Part shown: positions 1 through 64,000 of the stretch, in pieces
How the letters are laid out: each line of letters opens with the position of its first letter
Numbering within the stretch: position 1 is the first letter of the stretch
Assembly: GCA_019359675.1 (NCBI GenBank)
Contig: JAHHGX010000070.1
Span: 124,001-188,000 of the forward strand
DNA length: 64,000 nt
Direction: 5' to 3'
From: Calothrix sp. FI2-JRJ7
Lineage (GTDB): Bacteria; Cyanobacteriota; Cyanobacteriia; Cyanobacteriales; Nostocaceae
Made by a program: the position numbers and the translations under genes
The notes under the pieces: generated by a model
The model's database searches: none
What the model was told of the DNA's origin: nothing
Seen by the model: only the letters and a program-made list of their open reading frames with translations

Positions 1-512
1 GGATACAAGCCAGCTAACCGAGCTAAATCTACTGCTGCTTCGGTATGACCTGCACGTTTGAGAACTCCACCTTCTTTTGCCCGCAATGGGAAAATGTGAC
101 CAGGGCGCCGTAAGTCTTCTGGTTTAGTTGCGGGGTTTAAAGCTACTTGGATAGTTCTAGCGCGGTCTTCGGCGGAGATACCAGTACTAACACCTAAATT
201 AGGGCCTGCATCGATACTAACTGTGAATGCAGTTTGATTAGTATCTGTAATATTTCGCACCATCAAAGGCAAATCGAGTTCATCGAGACGCTCACCCATC
301 ATTGCCAAACAAATCAAACCGCGCGCTTCGACAGCCATAAAATTAATGGTGTCAGGTGTGGCAAATTGAGCAGCGCAAATTAAATCACCCTCGTTTTCGC
401 GGTTCTCGTCATCAACCACCACGATAGAACGACCAGCTTTTAAGTCAGCTAGGGCGGCATTAATCGGGTCAAATCTAAATTCTTGAGCTAGTTCTTCTTG
501 ATGCTGCGACAC
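1..512 (-). CDS. ribBA: RibBA, DHBP synthase part (3' end outside window)
   Basis: Bifunctional riboflavin enzyme: the N-terminal domain converts ribulose 5-phosphate to 3,4-dihydroxy-2-butanone 4-phosphate, and the C-terminal domain is GTP cyclohydrolase II. Only about 170 codons of the first domain are in the window, running off the left edge. Visible motifs are [11 protein letters not shown] (acidic metal-binding loop), [10 protein letters not shown] and [17 protein letters not shown], all typical of RibB. The start chosen is GTG at 512, the only good in-frame start before the conserved region. Whether the GTP cyclohydrolase part follows cannot be seen; fusion is the norm in cyanobacteria. 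It is divergent from argC. Confidence 0.9.
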
Positions 513-683
513 AAATGTTAATTATCCGGCGACCAATCGTAAATATCATTGTAGCTTATGATGTTAACTCACGAGTAAATTATTCTAATTCTCAGTTCTC
601 GATTCGCGCTGTTTGCGTTTTAATACTAGAGTGAGTTTTTGACTAAACAGCAAATTACAAAAACAGATAAGGATTTTGATATT

Positions 684-1742
684 ATGGGTAATTCTAGGCG
701 CGTAAGAGTTGGGATAGTTGGCGCGTCCGGTTATGGCGGAGTTCAGCTAGTGCGATTGTTAATAGACCACCCAGATGTAGAGGTAGTGTACATGGGAGGT
801 GATAGCACTACTGGTAAAAAATTTGCGGATATTTACCCGCACCTAGCACACGCAATTAACTTGACAGTTGAGAAGGTAGACCCGGAAGTTATTGCAGAAC
901 GTTGTGAAGTAGTGTTTCTTTCAGTTCCTAATGGTTTAGCTTGCCAAATGGCGCCTGTACTCTTGGCAAAAGGATGTAAAGTACTAGACTTAAGCGCCGA
1001 CTATAGATTTACTAATTTATCAACATACTCAGCATGGTACGGCAAAGAACGAAGCGACAATGAAACAGCATCAAAAGCCGTATATGGTTTACCAGAACTA
1101 TACCGCGAGCGCATAGCAGAAGCACAACTAGTAGGATGTCCTGGTTGCTATCCAACAGCGAGCTTACTTGCCTTATCACCACTACTTAAACAAGGATTAA
1201 TAGTACCTGAAACAGCCATTATCGACGCAAAATCTGGCACATCAGGTGGAGGACGTGAAGCCAAGGTTAATATGTTACTTGCAGAAGCAGATAACTCAAT
1301 AGCAGCATACGCTGTAGCAAAACACCGTCACACCCCAGAAATAGAGCAAATTTGTAGCGAACTAGCAGGACACGAACTAACAATCCAATTTACACCGCAC
1401 TTAGTACCAATGGTGCGCGGTATTCTCTCCACCGTCTACGCAAACCTTCGTGACCCAGGATTAGTACGTGACGACTTAATCACGATTTACCGCGCGTTCT
1501 ACCGTAATTCCCCGTGGGTCAAAATTTGTGACGCTGACACATACCCCCAAACAAAATGGGCATGTGGTAGTAACCTTTGTTACATAGGTATAGAAGTTGA
1601 CACCCGCACCGGGCGAGTTGTTGTAATGTCCGCCATCGACAACTTAATTAAAGGACAAGCCGGACAAGCAATTCAATGTATGAACCTCATGATGGGCTGG
1701 GATGAAACATTAGGACTACCCAAACTAGGCTTCTACCCCTAA
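684..1742 (+). CDS. argC: N-acetyl-gamma-glutamyl-phosphate reductase
   Basis: ArgC reduces N-acetylglutamyl phosphate to the semialdehyde with NADPH, the third step of arginine synthesis in the cytoplasm. The 352-residue product has the nucleotide-binding GASGYGG near its N-terminus, the catalytic cysteine in GCPGCYPT (about residue 155), KSGTSGGG, and the catalytic histidine in KHRHTPE. The frame is open upstream to a TTG at 639. ATG 684 is preferred because it is preceded by an AAGGA-type ribosome site and starts [16 protein letters not shown], matching cyanobacterial ArgC. It stands alone, with ribBA divergent upstream. Confidence 0.95.
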
Positions 1743-1861
1743 TTTTAAAATTCTTGTGGCACAGAGTGGCACAGGCATCCTGCCTGTGTTACCCAACAAA
1801 TAACTTTGCATTAACACGCATTAAAGATTTTTACCACAGAGACACAGAGTACACAGAGTAA

Positions 1862-2818
1862 TACAATATCTACTCAGAATACAGAAAATTTTACTACTAC
1901 AGTCAAGGAGATAAATTTACTCTTTATAAAGCCAATGCTGTTTATCCTAAAAAGGGGGAGCCAGCTTTACCATTTACAAACCGTGTTGTAATCGAACCAG
2001 GTAGACATATTAATTTACCAGGGGTAGGAACAGTAAGGTCACTAGAATTGGTTGATTACTACTATTCCTCACAAACTTTTACGGTATCTCGTACTGCGGA
2101 TAGATGGTTTGTATCTTCAAATATAGATGCAGACCGTGTTCCACCAATCATGCACCTCGTCGAAAAAGTTGGGATTGATTTAGGTGTTAAAACCTTTGCT
2201 ACGTTATCTGATGGTTCAACGGTTACTGCTCCTAGTACTTTAAAAAAAGCGTTAACGAAGTTATCCGAAGGAAAAACCAAGCTAAACAAGTTTCAGTGGC
2301 GAAACCGAAAAAGGCAGTTAGGTAATAGAGTTGCATGTATACGTGCGTCTAAAAATGCCAAAAAGTTTTTTGACAAACAAGCTTCGTTTCATGCTCGCAT
2401 AGGTAACATACGCAGGGATTTCTTGCAGAAAACTACTACTCTTATGAGCAGAAAATACTACAAAATCCGAGTTGAGGACTTAAACGTGTCTGGAATGGTT
2501 GCTAATCACAAATTGGCAGAAGCGGTTTCCAGTTTGGGACTGTACGAGTTCCGGAGAATGCTTGACTATAAACAGTCTCACTACGGTAGTAAGTTAGAAG
2601 TTGTAGATAGGTGGTATCCAAGTTCTAAAACTTGTTCCAAGTGTGGACACGTTCAAGACATGAAATTATCAGATCGTGTTTTTAACTGTGGTGCCTGTTC
2701 TTATTCAATAGACCGAGATTTAAATGCTGCTATTAATCTGGAAAATGCAGATAATCATTTAGCAGCAATTAAAGAGAAGAAAACCATTAAACGGTCTAGA
2801 AAAAAGAACCTCGATTAA
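1862..2818 (+). pseudogene. tnpB: IS605-type TnpB, N-terminally truncated
   Basis: The C-terminal two thirds of a TnpB RNA-guided nuclease/transposase-accessory protein. From 1862 to 2818 one frame stays open after a TAA at 1859, but there is no normal N-terminus; the first usable start is TTG at 2048. All three RuvC parts are visible: GIDLGVKTFATLSDG (first Asp), RVEDLNVSGM (Glu) and DRDLNAAINL (last Asp). The zinc ribbon CSKCGH...CGACSYSIDRD is also intact. The missing portion is the N-terminal helical/target-recognition region. No TnpA gene is nearby. It is probably inactive as a nuclease, although the catalytic half is undamaged. Confidence 0.85.
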
Positions 2819-2949
2819 AGTTTTAAAGTATCGTAGTGACCCGTGGCTTGCGGTTGAAGCCCATATGGATGGGAAAACGCTTGTGGACTAGAAGGAGCCG
2901 ACTCCCTAGTATGAAGCAAGAAGTAAACGTTAAATCTATTCAATTTTGA
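2819..2949 (+). ncRNA. IS605 right end, candidate omega-RNA scaffold
   Basis: Directly after the tnpB stop lies sequence of the type found at right ends of cyanobacterial IS605/IS1341 elements. Two small hairpins are visible: CCCAT/ATGGG at 2860-2873 and GGAG/CTCC at 2894-2905. Then comes a conserved-looking tail ending about 2949 in TTCAATTTTGA. In TnpB systems the guide (omega or re) RNA comes from the tnpB 3' end plus this right end, with the guide just outside the element. The RNA assignment rests on position and hairpins only. Confidence 0.5.
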
Positions 2950-3007
2950 TAGTAGGTAGGTTTGAGTAAGTTTTATAGAGCAGGTTATGGAACGGATTTA
3001 ATGTGAA

Positions 3008-3026
3008 GACGCGATATTATCGCGTC
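3008..3026. repeat. Repeat D, short hairpin (GACGCGAT...ATCGCGTC)
   Basis: Near-perfect palindrome with GACGCGAT and ATCGCGTC arms. It is a degenerate member of the dispersed GTAGAGACG/CGTCTCTAC hairpin family seen at least six more times in this window. Confidence 0.6.
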
Positions 3027-3036
3027 CCATCATTTT

Positions 3037-3136
3037 AGGACTTACGTAAAGAAACCTGGTTTCTACGCAAAACCGTCGTTTTTATTACAAGTTATCGACA
3101 GAGAAACCAGGTTTCTAGAATTTTTGCGTAAGTCCT
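3037..3136. repeat. Repeat A copy 1, MITE-like 100-bp palindromic element
   Basis: Bounded by AGGACTTACG at 3037-3046 and its exact complement CGTAAGTCCT at 3127-3136. Inside are two AGAAACC/GGTTTCT palindromes (3050-3064 and 3102-3116). The central segment matches, in inverted orientation, the centre of the copy at 5353-5468. Lies just 3' of eno. Confidence 0.8.
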
Positions 3137-3144
3137 GCATTTAT

Positions 3145-4533
<1,389 letters not shown>

Positions 4534-4637
4534 TCAATTAGAAATAATTCATTAAATACCCTCACAATCTCCTCAAACTTTCCGCATAGTCTTTTAGTAA
4601 ACCCATACCTGAATCAATACAGAACAAAGTAAACAAA

Positions 4638-5276
4638 ATGACTCAATATCAACAAAAAACTCACCCTTACGTTTCACTGTTTGAAATCCCGGCTGGTTAT
4701 CTCAATATCATGGGCTATGTTGATGCATCAGAGGTAAATGGTCCTGGTTCGCGCGCCGTTGTTTGGGTGCAGGGGTGTATGCGTGAGTGTCCGGGTTGCT
4801 TTAATGAAGCTTCTTGGTCGTTTGAGATTAATCAACTCATATCTGTAGATAACCTGGTTGAAAAAATCCTTGCTGACTCTCGTAACCAAGGAGTAACTTT
4901 TTCAGGTGGAGAACCCTTTTGGCAAGCTTCTGCACTCTCTAACGTTGCTAAAAAGGTCAAAGCAGCAGGTTTAAATGTCATGTCCTTTACTGGCTTTACC
5001 CTAGAACAACTCCAATCTGATTATGCCCCAGCTGGCGCCCAAGACTTATTAACACAACTTGATATTTTGATTGATGGCGCCTATGTTGAGGGGTTAGCGG
5101 TGAACTCTCCTAATTCTCCGGTTTCTTCGAGTAACCAGCGAGTCCATGTTTTTAACCCAGCGCTCTCTGACAAAATTAATTGGGCTAGCGACCAGCTTGA
5201 GGTTCATATTTTTAAGGATGGTAGCCGCTTAATAACTGGTTATCAAGGAGGTTTGGAGTTGACGACTGAGGATTAA
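4638..5276 (+). CDS. Radical SAM protein, NrdG-like activase
   Basis: Small 212-residue radical S-adenosylmethionine protein. The cluster motif is CMRECPGC (CxxxCxxC, about residues 47-54), followed by FSGGEPFWQ, the SAM-binding GGE motif. Length and layout match the 4Fe-4S single-domain family that includes NrdG and PflA activases, which make a glycyl radical on a partner enzyme. No anaerobic ribonucleotide reductase or formate lyase gene is in the window, so the partner is unknown. An internal ATG at MGYVDASEVNGPG is an alternative start. Divergent from eno, with about 200 bases between them. Confidence 0.75.
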   Translation: MTQYQQKTHPYVSLFEIPAGYLNIMGYVDASEVNGPGSRAVVWVQGCMRECPGCFNEASWSFEINQLISVDNLVEKILADSRNQGVTFSGGEPFWQASALSNVAKKVKAAGLNVMSFTGFTLEQLQSDYAPAGAQDLLTQLDILIDGAYVEGLAVNSPNSPVSSSNQRVHVFNPALSDKINWASDQLEVHIFKDGSRLITGYQGGLELTTED

Positions 5277-5302
5277 GTTTATAGGTGGGGTGGGGAAGGG
5301 GA

Positions 5303-5490
5303 GGGCGGGTTTACTCGTTCCTTATACTATGTTTATTAGTTATGTTTATTACAGGACTTACGCATGAAAACCTAGAAACCTGGAATATACGTTGATAACA
5401 TGTAATAAAATGACGATTTGTCTGCGACAATGAATGCGTAGAAACCAGGTTTATGCAGCGTAAGTCCTATATTAGTGGGTTAACCCGCCC
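5303..5490. repeat. Repeat F copy 1, split by a repeat A copy
   Basis: The outer arms GGGCGGGTTTA (from 5303) and GGGTTAACCCGCCC (5477-5490) match the ends of the compact F copies at 35114 and 40146. Here the arms are about 165 bases apart because repeat A copy 2 lies between them. Confidence 0.65.
5353..5468. repeat. Repeat A copy 2
   Basis: 116 bases bounded by AGGACTTACG and CGTAAGTCCT, with an AGAAACCAGGTTT motif near the right end. The centre (GTTGATAACATGTAATAAAA and on) is homologous, in the opposite orientation, to the centre of the copy at 3037-3136. Sits between the radical SAM gene and the LolA-like gene. Confidence 0.8.
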
Positions 5491-5500
5491 TTACGAATAT

Positions 5501-5530
5501 ATATCCGTTACATCCGTTACATCCGTTGCC
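5501..5530. repeat. Tandem nonamer ATCCGTTAC, three units
   Basis: Three consecutive units of ATCCGTTAC, the last ending in GCC. The same array occurs on the other strand at 32307-32335, and one degenerate unit occurs at about 40092-40110. It resembles the short tandem repeats of filamentous cyanobacteria. It is too short and has no spacers, so it is not a CRISPR array. Confidence 0.7.
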
Positions 5531-5639
5531 AACGACCCATTACCAAAAGCTATACTAGACTAGGTATAGATATCAAATTTTATACCATTAACTCAAAACG
5601 CTACGACAAAACCGTTTCAATAATTCTAGTGTGAGAAAT

Positions 5640-6506
5640 ATGGTTTCAGTTTCAAAATATTTAGCAAGTGCAGTAAGTATAATTGCTGTAACATTTGGGT
5701 CTATTGGTTATAGTAATGCAGTACCTACCCACTCGGCAGTTCCAGCGAGTCTATCTATAGCGTCATCGTCAAAACCTGCAACGGCAACTCCTTCTCAATT
5801 AGATTTGCCATTACTGATTAAAACAGGAGAAAGTTTTTTTAAGGGTAGTAATTATCAAACTGTATCGCAAATGCAGTTAAGAGGAACAAAGCAAGGTACA
5901 GATGTTACCTTTTATATACAAGCCAAAACTACAGTCAATTCTACGAATCAATTTAGGTCAGAAATTGCCTTTACTCAAGATGGTAAACTAAGTAAAGAAT
6001 CCGCAGTTGTTGTTTCTGATGGTAAACAAGTTTACATATATAGACCAGATTTAAAACAATATAGTATAATTTCATCTCAAGCCTTTAATAAGTCAGATGA
6101 TTCGTTTTTAATTGGTCTTTCTTCTTCGTTTTTCCTTGAATTCGCTGATAATATGGGTAAATATATTGCTAGCGGCGCCTTATCGCAACCAGAAGTTATC
6201 AAAGAAATTAGCGCAGCAGCAAATCAATCAATTCAAGGAGAAACACGCGACATCGAAGGCAAGCAAACATACGTGTATTCATTCAACGACCCCAAACAAG
6301 GATATACTATAAGTGCTTTCGTTAACCCACAACTAGCCAATCTCGAACAAATGCAAATTGTTGGCAAAGACGACGGGTTAGATATTGCAATAATCGAAAA
6401 AATCCAGCAGCGCACCGAAGTCAAAAATCTGGCACCACAAACCTTCAAATTTACACCACCATTAGGCGCCAAAAAAGTAAAATCCCTATCAATTAGCCCA
6501 TTTTAA
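5640..6506 (+). CDS. Secreted LolA-like/DUF2092-type protein
   Basis: 288-residue predicted exported protein. An N-terminal hydrophobic stretch (about residues 6-24, ending near SNA) looks like a signal peptide, followed by a Ser/Ala/Thr/Pro-rich linker. The body reads like the LolA-like, lipoprotein-carrier beta fold of DUF2092: repeated short strands, VVSDGKQVYIYRPDLKQY, and a helix before IQGETRDIEGKQTYVY. Such proteins are thought to bind hydrophobic ligands in the periplasm; the actual ligand is unknown. A GTG at 5631 is an alternative start, but ATG 5640 places the signal peptide correctly. A hairpin repeat follows the gene. Confidence 0.6.
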   Translation: MVSVSKYLASAVSIIAVTFGSIGYSNAVPTHSAVPASLSIASSSKPATATPSQLDLPLLIKTGESFFKGSNYQTVSQMQLRGTKQGTDVTFYIQAKTTVNSTNQFRSEIAFTQDGKLSKESAVVVSDGKQVYIYRPDLKQYSIISSQAFNKSDDSFLIGLSSSFFLEFADNMGKYIASGALSQPEVIKEISAAANQSIQGETRDIEGKQTYVYSFNDPKQGYTISAFVNPQLANLEQMQIVGKDDGLDIAIIEKIQQRTEVKNLAPQTFKFTPPLGAKKVKSLSISPF

Positions 6507-6512
6507 AATATT

Positions 6513-6619
6513 TAATCCCCCCAACCCCCCTTATTAAGGGGGGCTTTAAATCTTGTTTTTAGTTTATTAAGGCATATTTTTAAATCATATTCCCTTATTA
6601 AGGGGGGCAAGGGGGGATC
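6513..6619. repeat. Repeat E, large inverted repeat of C/G runs
   Basis: Left arm AATCCCCCCAACCCCCCTTA and right arm (6594-6619) are near-complements, and each contains a CCTTATTAAGG palindrome. A related single copy is at 34088-34115. Located between the LolA-like gene and gloA, where it may also act as a transcription stop. Confidence 0.75.
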
Positions 6620-6662
6620 AAAACGACTAAAATCTTTATAAGAAGCTCGAAGGAATAAAATT

Positions 6663-7097
6663 ATGCGTTTACTACACACAATGCTGCGGGTGGGGAATCT
6701 TGAAGAGTCGTTAAAGTTTTACTGCAACGTCCTGGGGATGAAATTACTACGACGAAAGGATTATCCGGGTGGAGAATTTACACTCGCGTTTGTTGGGTAT
6801 GGTGACGAATCTGATACATCGGTGCTAGAACTCACTTATAACTGGGGTAAAGAAAAATATGATTTAGGCGATGCTTATGGTCATATTGCACTTGGGGTGG
6901 ATGATATTTATGCTACCTGCGATGAAGTTAAAAAGCTTGGTGGTAAGGTAACGCGCGAACCGGGACCCATGAAACACGGTTCAACTGTGATTGCATTTAT
7001 TGAAGACCCCGATGGTTATAAGGTAGAACTAATACAGTTGGGTACTCAGGGTTCAGAAGCCAAAAATGAAACTAATCAACAGTTAGTTAATAAGTAA
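6663..7097 (+). CDS. gloA: Lactoylglutathione lyase (glyoxalase I)
   Basis: Isomerises the hemithioacetal of methylglyoxal and glutathione to S-lactoylglutathione, the first step of methylglyoxal detoxification. The 144-residue product has the two beta-alpha-beta modules of the family: [20 protein letters not shown] with the metal-ligand histidine, [10 protein letters not shown] with a glutamate ligand, [11 protein letters not shown] with the second histidine, and [14 protein letters not shown] with the last glutamate. An AGGA ribosome site precedes ATG 6663. The porin gene follows after 20 bases, so the two may be co-transcribed. Confidence 0.93.
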
Positions 7098-7120
7098 TTT
7101 TTACATATAGTGCAGGTGTG

Positions 7121-8722
7121 ATGGAGTTGAAGCCTAAACAGTATACGCGGTTGTCGCAGTTGCAACCGCCCCCTAAACTCATTGGTTTATTGAGTTGCGG
7201 TATATTTAGCCAGTTGTGTTTCCCTTCAATGGCATCTTTACCACATCATGAGGCGCCTACACTTGACGTAGGTGTTCAAGTTGCAGAATTTTCACCCATC
7301 GCTGCTGACCCTGCAACAACTCCAGATGCCAACCCAGATGCATTAGAACAATTACCAATGGTGAACGAACTAGAGGACGTTAAGCCAACTGATTGGGCAT
7401 ATACTGCGTTAAAGTCGTTGATGGAACGTTACGGTATATTATCAGCATATCCTGACAAAACATTTCGCGGTAATAAACCAATGACGCGATACGAGTTTGC
7501 AGCAGCACTGGCAACAACTCTTGATAAAATCGAAGGAATACTTGCGAATGCCATTGGTGACCAATATGTTCGGCAAGATGCAATTACAGTTCGGCGCCTG
7601 CAAAAAGAGTATGCTACTGTATTAAGCCAAGTTAGAGAGCGTATTGACAATACAGAGTATAAAGCTGCGGAACTTGAAGCAAATCAATTTTCTACCACAA
7701 CTAAACTCCAAGGACAACAAATAGCTGGCATTACAGGGGGAAGTAGTGCTTCGAGTACAATTGTTTCGCGTACTCGTTTGAACTTAATAACCAGCTTTAA
7801 TCAAAAAGATTTACTCGTCACACAGTTAGAGTCAGGTAATAACGGTAGTGATGCTGTGGGAGCAGAACAGCGAGAAGGGTTTAATTTATTGGGTAGTAAT
7901 GGATTATTTGCCAATGCTGGTGGGCTAGATTATAGTGATGTTGAATCAAATTTGAAATTAAGGCGCCTATACTACACATTTCGTCCCCAGGATGACCTAG
8001 CAGTAACAGTAGGGGCAAAAATGGCGCCACGTGATTTTATCGATAAAAACTCTTATGCTAACGATGAAGCACTTGATTTTAGTTCCGGTATATTTTTAAA
8101 TAATCCACTTATCGTCCAAAATCAAATTGACCGTACATCTGGTGCAGGTGTTGCCGTCGCATGGAGTCCAAAAGATAGTAAATTTGCAGCACGTGGTTTA
8201 TATATAGCAGCAGACGCAAATCAACCAACTCAAGGCATATCGGGGGATAGGCGCCAAGCGAGCGTAGAATTAGAATATGCTCCCAGCAATCAGCTAAAAT
8301 TAAAATTACAATATACTAACGCTCAAATTAACGACTCTGATATCAACGCTTTTGGTTTTAACGCCGAGTATCGTCTAAGTCTAAACACAGGATTTTTTGG
8401 AAGAGTAGGATACGGAAGTTACGAAGGATTTAACAACGCTATCAACCGTAATTTAGAAGCACATCCTTTTAGTTGGTCAGTAGGTTTACAACAGCGTAAC
8501 CTTGTCATACCGGGAACCCTTGCCGGAGTAGCAGTTGGTCAACCATTTGTAACAGGTGACTTAGGAAACGCAACTCAAACTAACTTCGAGGCATTTTATA
8601 ACCTTAGACTTAGCGACAGCGTAAGCGTCACCCCCATATTCACCGTCGTCACCAACCCCGATAACGACAAAGATAACGGTACAATCTGGCAAAGCACCCT
8701 CAGAACAGTGTTTTCATTTTAA
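7121..8722 (+). CDS. SLH-domain OprB-type outer membrane porin
   Basis: 533-residue outer membrane protein. It has an N-terminal hydrophobic region (about 20-40), then an SLH domain (about 85-140: VKPTDWAYTALKSLMERYG, FRGNKPMTRYEFAAAL) that anchors to the cell wall. A predicted coiled coil (about 140-200) follows, then a long beta-barrel region rich in alternating aromatic residues and ending in phenylalanine (TVFSF). This is the usual layout of cyanobacterial somb/iron-uptake porins. GTG 7118 directly precedes ATG 7121; either could start translation. The substrate cannot be told from sequence. Confidence 0.9.
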   Translation: MELKPKQYTRLSQLQPPPKLIGLLSCGIFSQLCFPSMASLPHHEAPTLDVGVQVAEFSPIAADPATTPDANPDALEQLPMVNELEDVKPTDWAYTALKSLMERYGILSAYPDKTFRGNKPMTRYEFAAALATTLDKIEGILANAIGDQYVRQDAITVRRLQKEYATVLSQVRERIDNTEYKAAELEANQFSTTTKLQGQQIAGITGGSSASSTIVSRTRLNLITSFNQKDLLVTQLESGNNGSDAVGAEQREGFNLLGSNGLFANAGGLDYSDVESNLKLRRLYYTFRPQDDLAVTVGAKMAPRDFIDKNSYANDEALDFSSGIFLNNPLIVQNQIDRTSGAGVAVAWSPKDSKFAARGLYIAADANQPTQGISGDRRQASVELEYAPSNQLKLKLQYTNAQINDSDINAFGFNAEYRLSLNTGFFGRVGYGSYEGFNNAINRNLEAHPFSWSVGLQQRNLVIPGTLAGVAVGQPFVTGDLGNATQTNFEAFYNLRLSDSVSVTPIFTVVTNPDNDKDNGTIWQSTLRTVFSF

Positions 8723-31474: not shown

Positions 31475-31571
31475 ATAAGAGCAAAGCTCTAACAGCAAAA
31501 ACATATATATATAGCAGTCCTAAATCATTGGTAAAATCCCTGCGGGAAAACCTCCGGTTTACGCGCGTTGC

Positions 31572-31595
31572 AGAGACCGTATTAATTCGGTCTCT
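31572..31595. repeat. Repeat D copy 3
   Basis: Arms AGAGACCG and CGGTCTCT around TATTAATT. Same layout as other D copies but with ACCG in place of ACGC. Confidence 0.7.
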
Positions 31596-31647
31596 ACATT
31601 TTGGCATTTTTGACAATTCATACGGGACAACTATAGATTATTGAGAT

Positions 31648-31747
31648 GCTTCGTGAGCGCATGACATATAATATTTTCACATTCCATTTTAATGGAATTA
31701 GGCTATTAGCATGGGGATTTTCAATCCCATGCGGGTGTGAACGAAGC
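31648..31747. other. Multi-stem foldable element
   Basis: Nested complementary segments: outer GCTTCGT (31648-31654) with ACGAAGC (31741-31747), then TTCACA (31676-31681) with TGTGAA (31736-31741). These enclose two separate hairpins, ATTCCATTTTAATGGAAT (31681-31698) and GCATGGGGATT/AATCCCATGC (31709-31732). It would fold as a cruciform or a four-stem RNA. No family recognised. Confidence 0.5.
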
Positions 31748-31778
31748 GAAAATCCATCTAAATGTGGCGCCTATGCTT

Positions 31779-32319
31779 TAAACCCATTACACCCTTTCTC
31801 GCTATCACCGAACGTGGTGATATTCCCTTACTGTACGAACCTAGTAAAAAAATGCTGCCTCCTTCAGCAGGTTTAGTTGTTCGTAAACAAGCATGGCAAG
31901 ATATACCACAAAACCCAATCCTCACAGGTCGAGCCAACGGTAACATGCTTACTGGTGAAGATACTGAAATGCTTTCATATATTCAAAAAGCCGGATGGGA
32001 AATTTGGTACAACCCTGCTATGGTAATTCAGCATCAAATCCCACACTGGCGCCTGCAAAAAGAATACTTAATTCCTTTCTTTCGCGGTATCGGTTTAAGT
32101 AGATACGTTACCCGAATGGTTAATATTAAACCACCATTAAGACCTTTTGCTTGTTTCGCTTATATGATTAATGATTTACGCAAAATAATAACTCATTTCA
32201 TTAAATACAGGCGCCGAGTTTTCACAGAATTAGTAGCTGCTTGTGAAATGCAGTTGTTTGTTAGTAGTTTGGTTAGTCCTTTTTATTTGTGGAAGAATGG
32301 CTACTTGCAACGGATATAA
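31779..32319 (+). pseudogene. HpsE relic 1, N-terminally truncated
   Basis: Encodes only the C-terminal ~175 residues of an HpsE-type glycosyltransferase: FLAITERGDIPLLYEPSKKM, LPPSAGLVVRKQAW, MLTGEDTEML, WYNPAMVIQHQIPHW and the family's C-terminal SSLVSPFYLW. The first ~130 residues, including the sugar-nucleotide and DDD metal sites, are missing, so it cannot be a working enzyme. The coding frame itself is still intact, suggesting recent truncation. The open frame begins at 31762 within unrelated sequence. Homology starts immediately after the repeat-rich junction. Confidence 0.85.
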
Positions 32320-32335
32320 CGGATGTAACGGATGG
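32307..32335. repeat. Tandem nonamer ACGGATGTA, three units
   Basis: Three units of ACGGATRTA preceded by GCA. Reverse complement of the array at 5501-5530. Begins over the last codons of HpsE relic 1. Confidence 0.7.
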
Positions 32336-32487
32336 TTTTTTGGGTTACCCGAAAGTCTTGCTAACTGACCGGAATGCACCTTGAACTTATTGAGAATGAC
32401 AAAGCTTATAATGCTTATTATTACGTAGGGTGGGCAGTGCCCACTTTACCCAAGCCAATCATATGGTGCAAGATGTAAGAGCTAATT

Positions 32488-32793
32488 ATGGAAGTTCTTT
32501 CAGCCCACGCTGATATCCCAGAAGATAATCAGCAAATTCAAATTGTAACTGTTTTTGATACTCAGAGCGACCGTTACCAACTATTGCGAATAGGCTGGAA
32601 CGGGTCTAAACACATTTTCAATCCTATTCTTCATCTTGATATTATTGAAGACAAAGTTTGGATTCAACAAAATAAAACAGATATTGAAATTGGTGAAGAA
32701 TTAGCATTTGTAGGTATTCCAAAATCGAACATTGTTTTAGGACTAATACCACCTCATCTTAGAGCTTACAACCCAGAATATTGTATTGTTTAA
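32488..32793 (+). CDS. Orphan XisI-family protein
   Basis: 101-residue protein with the XisI core: VTVFDTQSDRYQLLRIGWNG, LHLDIIEDKVWIQQNKTDIE, GEELAFVGIPKSNIVLGLIP and PPHLRAYNPEY. XisI is one of the factors (with XisH and XisF) named for excision of the fdxN element in Anabaena; most copies in cyanobacteria are outside that element. The usual N-terminal helix of about 20 residues is short here, and there is no xisH in front, so it is probably a leftover from a broken pair. It lies between two HpsE relics. Confidence 0.75.
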   Translation: MEVLSAHADIPEDNQQIQIVTVFDTQSDRYQLLRIGWNGSKHIFNPILHLDIIEDKVWIQQNKTDIEIGEELAFVGIPKSNIVLGLIPPHLRAYNPEYCIV

Positions 32794-32819
32794 CAAACAC
32801 GCTTACACAGAATCAATGT

Positions 32820-32962
32820 GCAGGCGCCACCCCTTCCCACTCAAGTACTGTCTCGAAACCCAACTCCCGGCGCCGCACACGCACGTAAACAAGCATGGCA
32901 AAATTACCACAAAACCCAATCCTCACTGGTCGAGCCAACAGTAACATGCTAAGGAGTGAACT
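32820..32962 (+). pseudogene. HpsE relic 2, internally deleted
   Basis: The first part (about 32822-32884) matches the RHPFPLKYYLET...GAA segment of HpsE copy 1 at 28660-28725. The sequence then jumps directly into CGTAAACAAGCATGGCAA and the CAAAACCCAATCCTCAC to AACATGCT segment matching relic 1 at 31881-31950. About 100 codons between them are deleted, and stop codons interrupt the frame. A clear molecular fossil of a further glycosyltransferase gene. Confidence 0.8.
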
Positions 32963-33093
32963 TTTAAAGTAGGCTTGTTGCTGGAGTTTTACTGTAATTG
33001 GTGCGTCAACAAAGCACTTATTATCACTTATATATAGTATGTGTACATTCTATATTGGGCTATGATACAAGGGTCTGTGCTTAAACAACATCT

Positions 33094-33511
33094 ATGCCCG
33101 CAAAAGATATCTACCACAATGCTGTGAGATTTGCATACTTTCAAGGATGGCTGGCAGATTTTAAAAGATGATTATACTCTGGAGTATGGAGGTGACCGTT
33201 TATACGTAGATATTGCAGCAGAAAAATCGATAACAGCAGAAAAGCAGGGTCGTAAAATTCTTGTAGAAGTTAAGAGTTTCTTGGGTCGCTCCTTTGTCAA
33301 TGACTTAGAACAAGCTGTAGGTCAGTATGTTGTTTATCGAGATGTTTTGGTAGAAACAGCATTAGATTTTAAATTATATTTGGCGATTACACAGGGAACC
33401 TATAAAAGTAATTTTCAAAGAAAATTAGCCCAAATGATTATCAATCGCAATCAAGTTAAGCTGTTAATAGTTGATGCGGAAAGTGAGGTAATTGTACAAT
33501 GGATAGATTAA
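33094..33511 (+). pseudogene. xisH: XisH, frameshifted near codon 13
   Basis: XisH-family protein with a PD-(D/E)XK-like core (DIAAEKSITAEKQGRKILVEVKSF). The true start is ATG 33094, MPAKDIYHNAVR, the canonical XisH beginning. That frame then continues FAYFQGW and hits TGA at 33172. The remaining protein, KDGWQILKDDYTLEYGGDRL to IVQWID, is in the next frame. Removing one T in the run at 33130-33132 would restore one continuous gene. Either the gene is dead, a TTG at 33131 gives a short form, or the frame is a sequencing error. The 3' end overlaps xisI by 13 bases. Confidence 0.8.
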
Positions 33512-33837
33512 AGCATCATCGAAAAATTGTCAAAGAAGTTTTGACAGAATACCATGAACTGAATGAAAAATCTGGTTCTACAACCGAAAGTGCTTTAGCC
33601 TTTGATGAGGTACACGACCAGTACCTTTTGCTGTTGATGGGTTGGCAGAAAGATGAGCGAATTAAAAGTGTGATGATTCATATCCGTTTGAAGAATAACA
33701 AAATTTGGATTGAGGAAGATAGAACAGAGGATGGAGTAGCAACAGATTTGTTACAGAAGGAAATCGCAAGAGAGGAAATTGTTTTAGCATTTCATCCACC
33801 TCATGTGAGACAATATACCGAGTTTGCTGTTGCGTAA
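33499..33837 (+). CDS. xisI: XisI-family protein, partner of the frameshifted xisH
   Basis: 112 residues, full length for XisI: MDRLKHHRKIVKEVLTEYHE (N-terminal helix), HDQYLLLLMGWQKDERIKSV, IHIRLKNNKIWIEEDRTEDG and EEIVLAFHPPHVRQYTEFAV. The start overlaps the end of the upstream xisH by 13 bases, the normal arrangement, so the two were translated together. XisI proteins pair with XisH; the biochemical function is not established. The fold suggests that XisH is nuclease-like and XisI its small partner. With xisH broken, its role is uncertain. Confidence 0.85.
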   Translation: MDRLKHHRKIVKEVLTEYHELNEKSGSTTESALAFDEVHDQYLLLLMGWQKDERIKSVMIHIRLKNNKIWIEEDRTEDGVATDLLQKEIAREEIVLAFHPPHVRQYTEFAVA

Positions 33838-33845
33838 CCCAATCC

Positions 33846-33868
33846 GCTTAGGGTTGAAAACCCTAAGC
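33846..33868. terminator. Stem-loop after xisI
   Basis: GCTTAGGGTT and AACCCTAAGC form a perfect ten-base stem with a GAA loop, starting nine bases after the xisI stop. No T-run follows, so it is either a weak terminator or another dispersed hairpin. Confidence 0.5.
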
Positions 33869-33996
33869 TAATAGCGCGCATTCCGTTAAAACGAACTAAA
33901 TAATATAATACGAGAATTGCGTTTATTTGCTTTTGATGGCGCCTGGACAAAAGCTATACTCAGAAACACGATTGTTTATCTAACACAAATTGGCGG

Positions 33997-34024
33997 GTAG
34001 AGACGCGATTAATCGCGTCTCTAC
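33997..34024. repeat. Repeat D copy 4, perfect 28-base palindrome
   Basis: GTAGAGACGCGATT followed directly by its exact complement AATCGCGTCTCTAC. The most perfect member of family D in the window. Confidence 0.85.
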
Positions 34025-34164
34025 GTGGTCTGGAATGACGTAAAATCGTGATGCTGAGGGGTCAGACCTACCATTCGCCAGCGGTATCCTTATTAAGGGG
34101 GGTTGGGGGGGATCAAATTCATATGAGTAATCATACTTAAAAAAATATCTGCTCCCTAGCAAAT

Positions 34165-34385
34165 TCTGCACTGGCGCCTATAAAATGCAGATTTAATTCC
34201 GTTTTTTCGCGGTTTCGGTTTAATTTGGTACGTGATTAGAATAATTTGGTACAAGCCACAGTTATGACCTTTGCTTGTTTAGTTTGCATGACCCGTGATT
34301 CGCGTTTACAATTATCGGCTCATCTAGTTACTTTGAACGAGCTTATACGGAATTAGTAGTAGCTTCTAACATTTTACTGTTTTTG
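34165..34385 (+). pseudogene. HpsE relic 3, heavily decayed
   Basis: Aligned by eye to relic 1 at 32036-32260: GCACTGGCGCCT, TTTAATTCCGTTTTTTCGCG, GACCTTTGCTTGTTTAG and GGAATTAGTAGTAGCTTCT all have counterparts in the same order and spacing, with many substitutions and small indels and with stop codons in every frame. Its own GGCGCC site at the TGGCGCCT position is kept. The oldest of the three relics. Confidence 0.7.
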
Positions 34386-34442
34386 CGATTGATGGGTGCG
34401 TCTACTTGTGAATTTTGTTGTTCAGGTTTTTTCGCTACGTTG

Positions 34443-34508
34443 AGAAACCCGGTTTCTTTCGTTTGCGTTGAATATTTTTATGCTTAGTGTCGAAGAAACC
34501 GGGTTTCT
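34443..34508. repeat. Repeat B copy 2
   Basis: Arms AGAAACCCGGTTTCT and AGAAACCGGGTTTCT with a 36-base spacer containing TTATGCTTAGTG, the same core as the copy at 13836-13902. Confidence 0.8.
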
Positions 34509-34566
34509 TGGGTTATAGGGTGCATTTACCGCTTGTAAATTCTTTGAATGCATTTACCACCCTATA

Positions 34567-35097: not shown

Positions 35098-35113
35098 TTG
35101 ATGGCACGGGTTT

Positions 35114-35170
35114 GGGGGCGGGTTTAGTTATATCCTGATGAATATGAAGGATTTGGGTTAACCCGCCCCT
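35114..35170. repeat. Repeat F copy 2
   Basis: GGGGGCGGGTTTA and TTGGGTTAACCCGCCCC arms around a 25-base spacer containing TATCCTGATGAATATGAAGG. Ends six bases before the ATG of the next gene, so it lies in its leader. Confidence 0.8.
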
Positions 35171-35175
35171 ACGAT

Positions 35176-35784
35176 ATGCATCATTTAATACTCTTTACTC
35201 GTTACCCTGAACCTAACCGGACTAAAACTCGTTTAATTCCTAAACTCGGTGCCGATGGTGCGGCAAATCTTCATCGTCAAATGACTGAGCATACTTTGTC
35301 TCAGGTTTTACCTCTAAATGTTTCTATGGAGGTGCGTTTTGCTGGTGGTAGTTTGGAGTTAATGCAGGCTTGGTTAGGTTCTGGTTTAGTATATCAGCCA
35401 CAGGGTGAGGGTGATTTGGGTGAGCGTATGGCTCGCGCTTTTCATGATTCTTTTAAAGAAGGCGCCAAAACTAAAACTCAAACTATTATCATCGGCAGTG
35501 ATTGTCCTGGTATTGATGCACAAATTTTAACTACGGCGTTTGCACATCTCAACGATGTTGATTTGGTGCTAGGCCCAGCTTTGGATGGAGGCTATTATTT
35601 AATCGGGTTACGCCGTTTAATTCCTGATTTATTCAAAAATATCAATTGGGGAACCTCTGAAGTGTTACAGCAGACTATAAATGTTGCACATACTTTAGGG
35701 CTATCTTTTGAATGCTTGGCGCCACTTGCTGATGTTGACCGTCCCGAAGACCTGGAGGTGTGGCATAATTTGCAACAGAATTAA
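35176..35784 (+). CDS. TIGR04282/DUF2064 glycosyltransferase-like protein
   Basis: 202-residue nucleotidyl/glycosyltransferase-like protein of the TIGR04282 family (related to the cofactor guanylyltransferase CofC/MobA fold). Seen motifs are ILFTRYPEPNRTKTRLIPKL at the start, GDLGERMARAF, IIGSDCPGIDAQIL, VLGPALDGGYYLIGLR and ADVDRPEDLEV. The family is described from arsenosugar and other sugar clusters; its true substrate is unknown. Its place between pseudopilin and HpsJ-like genes suggests a role in polysaccharide precursors. The upstream repeat F forms most of its leader. Confidence 0.8.
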   Translation: MHHLILFTRYPEPNRTKTRLIPKLGADGAANLHRQMTEHTLSQVLPLNVSMEVRFAGGSLELMQAWLGSGLVYQPQGEGDLGERMARAFHDSFKEGAKTKTQTIIIGSDCPGIDAQILTTAFAHLNDVDLVLGPALDGGYYLIGLRRLIPDLFKNINWGTSEVLQQTINVAHTLGLSFECLAPLADVDRPEDLEVWHNLQQN

Positions 35785-58345: not shown

Positions 58346-58350
58346 TAGAA

Positions 58351-59238: not shown

Positions 59239-59477
59239 ACATTATTAGCAGATAACTTATAGTAACTATTAGAGTGACTAAGAACAACGTCCTATACAGA
59301 GGGCGGGTGTCTTATACAGAGGGCGGGCTTTCCTGCCCACCCCACAAGATGGATTAATTTATTTTTTGGTAGCTAAAATATGCGCGCTATGGGTGTAGGT
59401 GCGGTGCAATTGCACTGTTATTTTCATGCGCGTTTAAGGAGTACACATCAGAATTATAGAATCAGGAGTTCAACCAG

Positions 59478-60629: not shown

Positions 60630-60659
60630 GTTGGGTGGAGCGTATAGCGGAACCCAACA
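60627..60659. repeat. Repeat G copy 4, supplies a stop codon
   Basis: GTAGGTTGGGTGGAGCG and CGGAACCCAAC arms around TATAG. The TAG at 60627-60629 positions ends the NHL gene. Confidence 0.75.
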
Positions 60660-60706
60660 GTATCAAATAACCGAATACATGTAGATACATTACATACCGA
60701 AATATC

Positions 60707-60732
60707 TAGAGACGTTACATGTAACGTCTCTA
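60707..60732. repeat. Repeat D copy 6, perfect palindrome
   Basis: TAGAGACGTTACA followed directly by its exact complement TGTAACGTCTCTA. Lies between the convergent NHL and xisI genes, where it may terminate both. Confidence 0.8.
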
Positions 60733-60742
60733 CATCTAACGT

Positions 60743-61156: not shown

Positions 61157-61557
61157 CGAACAATCTCCTTACTAAGAATATCGATAGTAAATAGGTTAAC
61201 ACAGTGAAGCGAGAGACTAGCCTGAAAAAAAGGCTTAGTTAGATGTTTTGTATAAATTTTCTCAGGAAGCGCCAGGTAAGGAATGCGATTCACACCCAGG
61301 TCTGTGAGTGCCATGCGGTAATGTAAGTATTGCCCAACTGCTTGATGGAAGTCGTAAGTGATACTTGGGTTTCCAAAACTTTTAACTTCTACTGCAATTT
61401 GAATATTTTCTTTCTCAGCACTAATTAATTTGTCAGCAATCATATCTAAATTAAGGTCAGTACCCATATAATTGAGCGTTGTTGTAGATTCAATATTTAC
61501 CCATCCATCTTTAATTAGGGCGATTTCTACAAGATTATGAAGTTTATCTTTTGCCAT
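61129..61557 (-). CDS. xisH: XisH-family protein (second pair)
   Basis: 142 residues, full length. Starts MAKDKLHNLVEIALIKDGWV, the canonical XisH opening, then LNLDMIADKLISAEKENIQI and AVEVKSFGNPS, which give the D...E-x-K arrangement of the PD-(D/E)XK nuclease fold, and VGQYLHYRMAL. No frameshift. Upstream gene of the overlapping xisH-xisI pair. XisH/XisI were first described as fdxN-element excision factors in Anabaena; the function of stand-alone pairs is not known. Confidence 0.88.
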   Translation of the reverse strand: MAKDKLHNLVEIALIKDGWVNIESTTTLNYMGTDLNLDMIADKLISAEKENIQIAVEVKSFGNPSITYDFHQAVGQYLHYRMALTDLGVNRIPYLALPEKIYTKHLTKPFFQASLSLHCVNLFTIDILSKEIVRWNPSPLLP

Positions 61558-61936
61558 TAGATATATTTTTATTTTATTTTTAAATTTATAAATAATTCTT
61601 GAATCTAAATCCTTTTAGAGGTTTATAAGCAAATTAGTGAATTCCTAAAAAACAATAGTACTAATATAGTTATAACTAATTGCCAGCAAGCATGATTTTT
61701 ATATTTATTTAATATTTATTTTTCGCTATGTAAACTAGTGTGGAGATTTGTTAAGATTTGGAGAATTTACTGATTTACAAAATTTATGAGATGATAAATA
61801 TTACAATACATACTTATTGATTGAACTGTAAGTTTGGAGGGAGCAAAGTAGGAAAGATTAAACGATGTGTTATATATAACATTATAATTTAGATTACCCT
61901 AGAGTCTTTACTTAGTACCTATACCGAAAAAAGTGG
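61558..61936. other. AT-rich region before the replication protein
   Basis: 379 bases between divergent xisH and the CyRepA1 gene, very AT-rich (runs such as TATTTATTTAATATTTATTT near 61700). If the right end is plasmid-derived, the replication origin could lie here, but I see no regular iterons. GTTTGCATCG and TTTTGACGAG-like short motifs occur only in the coding part. Confidence 0.45.
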
Positions 61937-64000
61937 ATGCGTGTTAAGTTGTTTGCATCGTATGAAGCATTGAGCTTGGGTAACATGTATCGGTACTATC
62001 TGCATCCACAGCATTTTGACGAGTTAGTTCGAGGTAGTGGTATTGATTCGGACATCGCGAGCTTAAATTTCAGTTCACTTCAAGATAATGGCGCCTATGA
62101 TTACTTATTGATTTCTGAGCAGGTTCCACGTACTAATACGGGAATGGTCAGAAATAGCTGGTTGCAGCGTTACGCACACGTAAGTTCTGGGGGTTGGTGG
62201 TGTTCGGGACTTGACCCTTTGAATAATTGGGAAAGTATGGAGTGGGGTTGTTTTAAGCCAAATCAACCTCGACTGAATCAGAAGGGTAAAAATATTAAGT
62301 ATGAGCATCCTCCTGGAACAGCTACGCGCGTATTTTGTCTGCGTGTGACATTACCTGTGTGGGAGAAAGTTTGTCAACGTTATGGTATAGATTTACCTGC
62401 GAATATATATATTAATCAAAGTGGTGAAGCTGAGGGTTTTTGGCAGTGGGTGATTGAGCGTTCGATACCAGTTATTATTTGTGAGGGTGTTAAAAAAGCT
62501 GCTGCTTTATTATCGTTAGGTTATGTTGCAATTGCAATACCTGGAATTACTAGTGGTTATCGTGTTAATAAGAATGAATTTGGTAAAGTTATTAGTCGGC
62601 AGCTTATACCAGATTTAGCAGCTTTTACAGTTACAGTCAGGCGCCAATTTTACATTTGTTTTGATTTTGAGACGGAACCGAGAAAAATTGCTGCTGTTGA
62701 TAATGCAATTTCTCAGCTTGGTTTACTGTTTCAATCTCAGAATTGTTCTGTTCAGGCGATGAAGCTACCTGGAAAAGAAAAAGGTGTTGATGAATTTATT
62801 GTTGAGCAGGGCGCCGATGCCGTCGATAATATATATAGTCACAGTTTAGATTTAGAGACATATTTAGCTCTTTGCAAACCCCATGCTCAATTAACGATAA
62901 ATGCTGCGCTAACAGTTAATCGTCGTTATTTAGGTGAAATACCTCTGCCAAATTCTGGTTTAGTTGGTGTAAAGTCAGCGAAAGGAACGGGAAAAACAAC
63001 TGCACTACAAAAAGTAATCGAATCGGCAAAAGCAAATAACCGTCCCATTTTATTAATCACCCATCGAATCCAACTTGGAAAATTCCTCTGCGACAAAATC
63101 GGTATCGACTGGGGTATTGGAAATTCCCGTAGAGACGTGATTAATCCCTGCGGGAAAACCTCCGGTTTACACGTCTCTACACAAAATTCTATAGGTTTGT
63201 GTGTAGATTCAATTTGGAAACTTAATGCGAATGACTGGGCTGGTGGGATAATAATTTTAGACGAAGTTGAACAGTCTTTATCACACTTACTTCATAGTAC
63301 TACTTGTAAAGATAAGCGCGTTAAGCTTCTTAAAACATTCCAGGAACTTATTAACACTGTGTTAACAACAGGTGGTTTGGTAATTGCTCAAGATGCTGAT
63401 TTATCAGATATTTCCTTGGAGTACATACAGCAGTTAGCAGGAATAGAAATAACTCCTTGGGTGCTAGAAAATGAATGGCAACCTGAGAAAGGTTGGGATA
63501 TCTCGTTTTATGATTCTCCTAACCCGACTCCGTTAATTCAACAGCTTGAACTTGACTTAATAGCTGGACGTAAATGTTATGTTACTACCGATAGTCGTGC
63601 AGGACGATATAGTTGTGAAACTATTGAACGTTATTTAAGAGAACGTCTAGAGCGTTTATATAGAATATCTCCTAAATCATTGGTGATAAGCAGCAGCACA
63701 ACTAATACTCCTGGACATGCAGCAGTAGACTTTGCTGCTGAAATCAATCAAAAAGTTACAGATTACGATTTAGTGTTAGTGACACCTAGTCTAGGAACAG
63801 GTGTTAGTATCGACGTTCAGCACTTTGACCGTGTTTACGGAATTTTTCAAGGTGTAATTCCTGACTCAGAAGCAAGACAAGCATTATCACGTGTTCGTGA
63901 CTCTATACCACGTGCAGTATGGTGTGCAAAACGAGGAATTGGAATAATTGGCAGTGGTAGCACTAACTATCGATTACTATCACAGTGGTATCAGGAAAAC
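61937..64000 (+). CDS. CyRepA1-type plasmid replication protein (3' end outside window)
   Basis: One frame is open from ATG 61937 to the window edge, 688 codons. It has an N-terminal domain, then a DUF3854/TOPRIM-type domain: IICEGVKKAAALLSLGY (about 180-196), FYICFDFETEPRK and LPGKEKGVDEFI. It then has a helicase part with Walker A AKGTGKTT (about 348-355), LITHRIQLGKFL, Walker B IIILDEVEQS (Asp about 442) and a motif VI-like ALSRVRDSIPRAVWC. This matches the CyRepA1 replication proteins of cyanobacterial plasmids. A dispersed hairpin repeat lies in frame at residues ~398-415. It could be an integrated plasmid or a contig end. Confidence 0.8.
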   Translation, partial: MRVKLFASYEALSLGNMYRYYLHPQHFDELVRGSGIDSDIASLNFSSLQDNGAYDYLLISEQVPRTNTGMVRNSWLQRYAHVSSGGWWCSGLDPLNNWESMEWGCFKPNQPRLNQKGKNIKYEHPPGTATRVFCLRVTLPVWEKVCQRYGIDLPANIYINQSGEAEGFWQWVIERSIPVIICEGVKKAAALLSLGYVAIAIPGITSGYRVNKNEFGKVISRQLIPDLAAFTVTVRRQFYICFDFETEPRKIAAVDNAISQLGLLFQSQNCSVQAMKLPGKEKGVDEFIVEQGADAVDNIYSHSLDLETYLALCKPHAQLTINAALTVNRRYLGEIPLPNSGLVGVKSAKGTGKTTALQKVIESAKANNRPILLITHRIQLGKFLCDKIGIDWGIGNSRRDVINPCGKTSGLHVSTQNSIGLCVDSIWKLNANDWAGGIIILDEVEQSLSHLLHSTTCKDKRVKLLKTFQELINTVLTTGGLVIAQDADLSDISLEYIQQLAGIEITPWVLENEWQPEKGWDISFYDSPNPTPLIQQLELDLIAGRKCYVTTDSRAGRYSCETIERYLRERLERLYRISPKSLVISSSTTNTPGHAAVDFAAEINQKVTDYDLVLVTPSLGTGVSIDVQHFDRVYGIFQGVIPDSEARQALSRVRDSIPRAVWCAKRGIGIIGSGSTNYRLLSQWYQEN
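63129..63180. repeat. Repeat D copy 7, inside the replication gene
   Basis: GTAGAGACGTGATTAATCCC... with the closing arm TTTACACGTCTCTAC. The centre CCCTGCGGGAAAACCTCCGG also occurs alone at 31540-31559. The surrounding reading frame passes through without a stop, adding about 17 residues (RRDVINPCGKTSGLHVST). Confidence 0.85.

Follow-up and report, generated by a model that had tools for sequence, protein, structure and literature searches.

A 64,000-base stretch of the genome of Calothrix sp. FI2-JRJ7 (the window; the whole genome has 8.66 Mb) carries 117 copies of the palindrome GGCGCC and no copy of HIP1 (GCGATCGC), the highly iterated palindrome (HIP) that recurs more often than any other word in many cyanobacterial genomes and whose role has been open since its description in 1995. 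A selection study on HIP1 is said to have been made by Xu, Lawrence and Durand in 2018. We find that GGCGCC is a real, genome- and genus-wide alternate HIP, and we present new evidence on its extent, likely methylation, maintenance and decay. Judging from its patterns of change among related species, the word probably carries a methyl mark, is kept on purpose and is slowly wearing at that very letter; both the methylation and the function are what we infer from the patterns described below.

GGCGCC in place of HIP1 in the genome and the genus

Base frequencies predict 3.8 copies of GGCGCC in the window, and 200 first-order simulations yielded a mean of 5.6 and a maximum of 12, while a maximal-order model, which already includes the signal, expects 66. 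The original prediction, made from the letters of the window, had put the count at about 115 by eye against about four expected, had seen no HIP1 and had placed the sites in coding as well as non-coding DNA, and the counts agree with it: 97 sites lie within open reading frames (ORFs) of at least 120 aa (1.99 per kb) and 20 outside (1.32 per kb). Genome-wide, GGCGCC occurs 14,889 times and GCGATCGC 31 times (reversed control word, 51); CCGCGG, the reversed control of GGCGCC, is found 8 times, and since it is itself rare, composition is the fairer yardstick. By composition, a 467 kb sample that includes the window contains 783 GGCGCC versus 28, 46 and 38 expected under zero-, first- and second-order models. 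Thus, as is required of an alternate HIP, GGCGCC is a GC-rich palindrome strongly over-represented throughout a genome in which HIP1 is low or absent, and GCGATCGC is over-represented neither in this genome nor in the genus. A genome-wide GGCGCC count near expectation, or abundant HIP1 outside the window, had been named in advance as contrary to the replacement, and neither occurred.

To define the extent of the replacement, we surveyed 217 genomes of the family, seven of which form the genus (g1): the present genome and the six congeners Dulcicalothrix desertica PCC 7102 (G060), Calothrix PCC 7103 (G061), HK-06 (G062), NIES-4105 (G063), the metagenome-assembled genome C42_A2020_038 (G064) and PCC 7716 (G065). 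All seven are rich in GGCGCC, with 7475-20,380 copies each, or 1150-1719 per Mb on rounded genome sizes, which is the density of an alternate HIP (about 1000-2000 per Mb), whereas the 210 other genomes reach at most 111 per Mb. HIP1 is present in 31-163 copies in each of the seven (controls, 37-75) versus at least 535 in 209 of the 210 others, the remaining one having 30 in 3.2 Mb. Where DNA can be aligned, the divergence of five congeners from this genome is 6% to 19%. As all seven genomes are GGCGCC-rich with HIP1 near chance, the alternate HIP is fixed in the genus. The original prediction of GGCGCC in place of HIP1 therefore holds beyond the window, genome-wide and across the genus. Its core is not new, since Elhai (2015) had already described the alternate HIP and the link to GRCGYC for PCC 7103; what is new here is that the swap spans the whole genus.

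GATC is found 20 times in the window (228 expected) and 126 times in the 467 kb (1671 expected), and it is depleted in all six genus genomes sampled; for GGCC the corresponding counts are 10 (98 expected) and 110 (719 expected). The other GRCGYC words, GACGCC, GACGTC and GGCGTC, occur 0, 0 and 2 times in the window, and all three are depleted in the 467 kb. Among the words one letter removed from GGCGCC, only GGTGCC/GGCACC is in excess (142 versus 86-111 expected in 467 kb). Several further palindromes are nearly absent from the 467 kb, namely GTGCAC (0), TGCGCA (1), GAGCTC (1), GGATCC (2) and AGGCCT (2), each with about 65 expected from base frequencies, and the depletion of many palindromes suggests numerous restriction systems, past or present. 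The scarcity of CCGCGG, of which each of the six congeners has 1-8 copies, is probably due to an Eco29kI-type system: locus L009 encodes a C5 methyltransferase followed by an Eco29kI-family endonuclease (PF09517; Table 1), the target of which we take to be CCGCGG.

Two stretches in the genus, one in PCC 7103 and one in C42_A2020_038 (Table 1), lack GGCGCC and carry four HIP1 each; they are probably DNA imported, seemingly not long ago, from HIP1-type cyanobacteria, and the HIP word may thus serve as a barcode for gene transfer. Three other GGCGCC gaps of more than 5 kb, two in PCC 7103 and one in C42_A2020_038, contain no HIP1. In a class-wide sample of 388 genomes, G435, from another family, stands out with 9489 GGCGCC in 3.8 Mb (control, 2450), against 304-343 in each of three genomes of its genus; 3 kb of G435 showed 53% G+C, five GGCGCC and no HIP1. 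The word may have been enriched here a second time and independently, or G435 may be an outlier of high G+C. Next in the class sample came G561 with 3074 (control, 165) and G448 with 1169 (control, 25).

Conservation and probable decay of the word

We aligned the 467 kb with five congeners, all except HK-06, and determined how often GGCGCC was kept in comparison with all hexamers. The retention was 0.877 versus 0.738 in PCC 7102, 0.892 versus 0.736 in PCC 7716, 0.532 versus 0.324 in C42_A2020_038 and 0.750 versus 0.465 in NIES-4105, where GGCGCC ranked 1 of 1802. Synonymous positions within GGCGCC are far better kept than the same codons elsewhere, strongly so in these four genomes. In NIES-4105, the alanine codon GCC was kept at 0.892 after GGC, at 0.868 after other glycine codons and at 0.499 after codons for other amino acids, the other glycine codons being mostly GGT in GGT GCC, the presumed decay product of GGCGCC; likewise, GGC was kept at 0.870 before GCC versus 0.552 before other codons starting with G. 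The word is thus conserved beyond codon constraint, clearly at the outer positions and against central transversions (see below), and less clearly at positions 2/5.

The spectrum of losses was determined at the tips of four close species, polarised by NIES-4105 as outgroup and with expectations from trinucleotide context. Sites were lost at 74 of 686 opportunities, 69 of the losses being one-step changes, and 55 of these 69 hit the central C or G to give GGTGCC or GGCACC (22.7 expected), with 14 in the remaining classes (29.8 expected). This test is blind to codon position, and as the central C falls in most cases on a wobble position, it was repeated within ORFs in a codon-matched version, in which the direction held. 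With the outgroup, changes of C3 to T numbered 15 versus 6.3 expected and all other changes 0 versus 11.4; without the outgroup, the numbers were 50 versus 28.6 and 15 versus 54.1, the latter made up of 8 (33.1 expected) at positions 1/6, 6 (11.7) at 2/5 and one central transversion (9.3). With other changes scarce and C3 to T in excess, the word is protected except for the transition that is expected from deamination of 5-methylcytosine (m5C) at the base which enzymes of the BsaHI type (see below) methylate.

Furthermore, losses of sites far exceed gains where the polarity is clear. Where the other five species agreed, we counted 86 losses in 584 opportunities versus 4 gains, while in the same test the control words GCGCGC and CGCGCG showed 11 losses with 9 gains and 17 losses with 12 gains, respectively. 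When the root was left free, a two-state model gained 78 log units over its stationary counterpart; its estimate for the root was 2.6 sites per kb, compared with 1.4-2.1 now in the same columns.

A candidate orphan methyltransferase

A methyltransferase for GGCGCC had been predicted elsewhere in the genome, and by homology one is present: an orphan C5 enzyme, L006, is encoded on contig C79, and its homology points to the degenerate GRCGYC group, not to an enzyme for GGCGCC only. Nine matches to PF00145, about five of them whole enzymes, were found in the genome. L006 has 317 aa, is assigned to the C5 cytosine methyltransferase family by PF00145 (E 6.9e-66) and has M.HaeIII as its best match of solved structure. 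Its recognition domain is common to enzymes paired with HindVP, with the block YYRHPR..RR.IFSIDEPSPTIR.VNRP, and the hallmark of the group as given in the published motif description (PMC2413257), a recognition domain around a TL motif with an arginine 11 residues upstream, is present. According to that source, GRCGYC is the recognition sequence of the BsaHI/HgiDI group, the base modified by M.BsaHI is the central C, as demonstrated at a GGCGCC site, and the putative HindVP, whose endonuclease was inactive in vitro, falls into the group by sequence; in Haemophilus influenzae Rd, the source of HindVP, GRCGYC methylation has been seen (PMC8565308). By homology, L006 belongs to the GRCGYC (BsaHI/HindVP) group, and from homology together with the C3-to-T excess we infer that its target is the central C of GGCGCC.

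The enzyme is intact in all seven genomes of the genus, its relatives in the six congeners being 81-97% identical. In six of the seven genomes, it is flanked upstream by a RuBisCO-like gene (by Pfam, in the copy of this genome) and downstream by a gene that we take to be SLH-like; in HK-06, the intact relative stands at another place, and contig ends carry fragments of a copy at 92-97%. The SLH-like ORF beside L006 measures 172 aa here and 681-685 aa in five congeners. No endonuclease was found beside L006, and the Pfam profile search for RE_HindVP gave no match in any of the seven genus genomes, for which reason L006 was filed as an orphan methyltransferase and not as part of a restriction-modification system. 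RE_HindVP was found in 43 of the 210 other genomes of the family, in 42 of them above the Pfam cut-off, and homologues of L006 at 55-73% identity, some of them broken, in 56. Relatives in other cyanobacteria often stand directly behind RE_HindVP (12 of 13 neighbour proteins scanned match), while no neighbouring ORF of this type was seen at six listed loci (L023, L025, L026, L027, L033 and L034).

A 61% paralogue, L005, is by homology, like L006, a candidate for acting on GGCGCC, and second copies or pieces of the L006-type enzyme exist in PCC 7103, HK-06, NIES-4105 and PCC 7716. A second homologue at E 1e-40 was not found in PCC 7102 (10 of 22 candidates scored) or in C42_A2020_038 (10 of 15), and as both are rich in GGCGCC, a second copy is seemingly unnecessary for keeping the word. 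Another locus, L011 (Table 1), is a truncated N-terminal piece of a C5 methyltransferase (139 aa), the counterparts of which have 413 aa in PCC 7102 and HK-06 and 430 aa in NIES-4105, are shortened or broken in PCC 7103 and PCC 7716 and have no match in C42_A2020_038.

Outside the genus, possession of the enzyme goes without enrichment. The median number of GGCGCC per Mb is 0.71 in genomes with matches to both the enzyme and HindVP (n=39), 6.1 with the enzyme and no HindVP (n=17, including four with broken or partial genes, G019, G097, G105 and G124), 1.2 with HindVP only (n=4) and 5.1 with neither (n=150). In the 13 genomes with an intact orphan enzyme, the median density of GGCGCC is 12.8 per Mb and the highest 42.6, and each of these genomes keeps 1751-8091 HIP1. 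A further condition is therefore needed. Avoidance of restriction as the origin of the abundance was rejected, because it acts in the opposite direction (enzyme with HindVP versus neither).

Placement and spacing of the sites

GGCGCC sites follow one another at nearly random intervals (coefficient of variation 0.87-1.05), so that regular spacing was rejected apart from a short-range deficit: in all six genomes sampled, pairs less than 30 bases apart made up 0.8-1.8% versus 3.6-5.2% expected, and a comparable deficit was seen in one of six control hexamers, all six of them sparse. A longer palindrome was likewise rejected, as the flanking bases are complementary in 30% of the sites and no fixed extension of GGCGCC is thus seen. 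The stretch that the original prediction called a decayed pseudogene retains, as stated there, a GGCGCC; this single site is intact in the aligned PCC 7103 and PCC 7716 and reads TTAGCC in PCC 7102, NIES-4105 and C42_A2020_038 not being aligned there. Small dispersed repeats also lie in this part of the window.

Table 1. Coordinates of GGCGCC sites and of other features (window positions unless a contig is named).
Feature	Position	Strand	Remark
GGCGCC palindromes	1..64000	.	117; first 104, last 62810; ~1 per 550 bases
GGCGCC outside ORFs of at least 120 aa, part 1	8883, 11985, 12706, 18557, 18677, 32823, 32869, 33938, 34173, 38046
GGCGCC outside ORFs of at least 120 aa, part 2	38337, 41902, 43930, 46181, 47562, 47860, 48377, 48428, 58596, 58797
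Two GGCGCC outside ORFs (32823, 32869)	32823..32874	.	Examples of the 20 such sites
GGCGCC in the putative decayed pseudogene	34173..34178	.	Within 34165-34385
GGTGCC/GGCACC	2690..2695	.	First of 14 in the window (2690 to 56785); expected product of central-C deamination of GGCGCC
Small dispersed repeats	~31505-34520 and 35102-35185		Stretches of about 60-130 bases; many scattered matches in at least five of six congeners, among the matches listed
SLH-like ORF beside L006	contig C79, 917-1435		172 aa
L011, C5 methyltransferase piece	contig C89, 1483-1902		139 aa
L009, C5 methyltransferase and Eco29kI-family endonuclease	contig C61, 1462-3345
HIP1-bearing stretch in PCC 7103	G061:C7, 7944001-7949483		At least 5.5 kb, start of block; no GGCGCC, four HIP1
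HIP1-bearing stretch in C42_A2020_038	G064:C32, about 90928-96107		5.2 kb; no GGCGCC, four HIP1

Proposed origin and maintenance of the alternate HIP

The explanation that we favour, and consider reasonably probable, is that GGCGCC is an alternate HIP that was built before the genus ancestor, is probably m5C-methylated, is kept by weak selection and is now eroding. In the stem lineage, GATC-directed restriction or a similar pressure would have removed HIP1, as Elhai proposed for PCC 7103, and an orphan C5 enzyme of the GRCGYC group would methylate the central C of GGCGCC. The word would have been raised to about one per 400 bases (a model estimate) before the genus ancestor, inheriting whatever HIP1 does, and would itself be maintained by selection or by site-directed repair acting like selection, the C3-to-T excess reflecting, if so, m5C deamination in a slowly eroding set of sites. 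A bolder proposal, which we regard as possible but doubtful, is that thousands of sites per genome were rewritten from HIP1 to GGCGCC in one genus stem, that this writing is now a trickle and that the methylated word is held by function against its own deamination.

Several observations weigh against the favoured explanation. The methylation is read from mutation patterns and the recognition from homology only, and the 13 intact orphans make plain that possession of such an enzyme does not by itself enrich a genome in GGCGCC. What can be aligned is the better conserved DNA, and an alignment would miss sites gained by insertion; the codon-matched test, in its version with outgroup, draws on 15 events, and the branch lengths of the two-state model were set by hand from identities, with one rate for all columns. 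In PCC 7103, the retention of GGCGCC was 0.781 versus an average of 0.756 (rank 847 of 2292), and in non-coding DNA it was barely above background (PCC 7102, 38/50 versus 0.70; PCC 7103, 37/50 versus 0.72; PCC 7716, 39/53 versus 0.68; NIES-4105, 18/27 versus 0.44; C42_A2020_038, 5/16 versus 0.34). Finally, the gain counts do not suggest decay alone: in the test without an outgroup, 8 one-step gains were seen versus 1.74 expected, singleton gains at distances of 1-3 steps numbered 30 versus 7.8, NIES-4105 showed 13 singleton gains versus 8 singleton losses, and the deep branch 4 gains versus 2 losses. Part of the singleton excess may be ancestral sites lost in all other species; other GC-only hexamers reached 38, 26 and 8 singleton gains at distances of 1, 2 and 3.

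The one-step gains without outgroup and the singleton gains also speak for the mismatch-repair ratchet proposed by Elhai, in which repair directed by GmeC would convert near-miss words into GGmeCGCC and preserve them although they have no function of their own. The type of methyltransferase and the methylated base fit this proposal, the one-off neighbours other than GGTGCC/GGCACC are under their base-frequency expectation, and biased repair would likewise yield protection of the sites. However, polarised one-step gains are not raised (1 in 164 opportunities versus 0.54 expected with NIES-4105 as outgroup; 1 in 134 versus 0.77 where the other five species agree), and the singleton excess is greater for two- and three-step changes (22 versus 4.3) than for one-step changes (8 versus 3.5), contrary to what a one-step ratchet predicts. 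Losses, moreover, exceed gains by 86 to 4, and the second methyltransferase copy that Elhai held to be possibly critical was not found among the candidates scored in the GGCGCC-rich PCC 7102 and C42_A2020_038. An active one-step ratchet as the present source of sites thus gets little support, and we consider the ratchet as a whole unlikely. The net loss of sites would fit a mere relic, amplified once and now functionless, the apparent conservation of which would come from conversion bias, from slowly evolving spots or from the selection of DNA that can be aligned; the little protection in PCC 7103 and the retention outside ORFs, little above background and in C42_A2020_038 below it (0.31 versus 0.34), point the same way, but synonymous positions within the word are far better kept than the same codons elsewhere, and we judge a pure relic to be rather improbable.

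Two further mechanisms were rejected. Very-short-patch repair, in which a Vsr-like nuclease would restore T:G to C:G and so enrich GGCGCC, is suggested by the fact that the usual partner of Vsr is an m5C enzyme. Pfam Vsr (PF03852) was found, however, in none of the seven genus genomes and in 1 of the 210 others, and such repair should make GGTGCC/GGCACC rare, whereas it is found in excess, C3 to T being the commonest loss; this mechanism is largely refuted and highly improbable. The composition of codons and amino acids could produce GGC GCC pairs in proteins rich in glycine and alanine with GC-ending codons, and 364 of 660 ORF sites are indeed in the Gly-Ala frame. Yet GGC makes up 16.5% of the glycine and GCC 15.4% of the alanine codons, while GGCGCC encodes 364 of 658 Gly-Ala pairs; sites lie in all three frames (364, 139 and 157), DNA outside ORFs has 1.15 per kb, and the low densities in the 210 other genomes of the family are a further argument against it. 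These counts refute this explanation, to which we assign next to no probability.

Relation to known systems and significance

The system closest to ours is that of Elhai (2015), who reported GGCGCC as the alternate HIP of Calothrix PCC 7103 and of 19 kb of Calothrix D253, with HIP1 lost, GATC extremely depleted and two GRCGYC-type methyltransferases alongside (PMC4390886); we found no other report on GGCGCC in Calothrix in the open-licence literature. The word, the loss of HIP1, the depletion of GATC and CGATCG and the type of methyltransferase are the same as here, and PCC 7103 is a congener. That study drew on a single genome plus 19 kb from a second one; here all seven genomes of a genus share GGCGCC, and the patterns of orthologous substitution, the codon-matched protection and the balance of loss and gain are new relative to the available text of that paper, which proposed the GmeC-directed ratchet, and a GATC endonuclease as the driver of HIP1 loss. 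Like HIP1 with its methyltransferases DmtA/DmtC, GGCGCC is a palindrome of high density and GC content that lies in coding as well as non-coding DNA and probably overlaps the target of an orphan C5 methyltransferase; it differs in being another word, of six letters and with no GATC core, in genomes where HIP1 (GCGATCGC) is at chance level. The GRCGYC restriction-modification group (BsaHI, HgiDI, HgiGI and the putative HindVP; Neely and Roberts 2008, PMC2413257) resembles our enzyme in the recognition domain and in the gene neighbourhood of its relatives, although in the genus the enzyme is solitary and one GRCGYC word is abundant with the rest depleted; some HindVP-type endonucleases are themselves inactive according to the same source.

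In the available text of Elhai (2015, PMC4390886), exceptional HIPs are described as sporadic, not occurring in clades and non-persistent, and the question is raised why cyanobacteria with the same methyltransferases show no effect. Our data correct the former, as alternate HIPs can persist through a genus, and put numbers on the latter, as possession of the methyltransferase is not sufficient. A genus with another word, a matching orphan methyltransferase and cultured strains (PCC 7102, PCC 7103, PCC 7716 and NIES-4105) provides a comparative and experimental handle, and a word that lacks the GATC core of HIP1 makes methylation, knock-out and mutation spectra testable. If the word was indeed rewritten in the stem and is held by function, the genus would offer a natural experiment for telling the function of HIPs apart from their origin, and HIP function would then seem to rest on the methylated GmC mark and not on the letters of HIP1.

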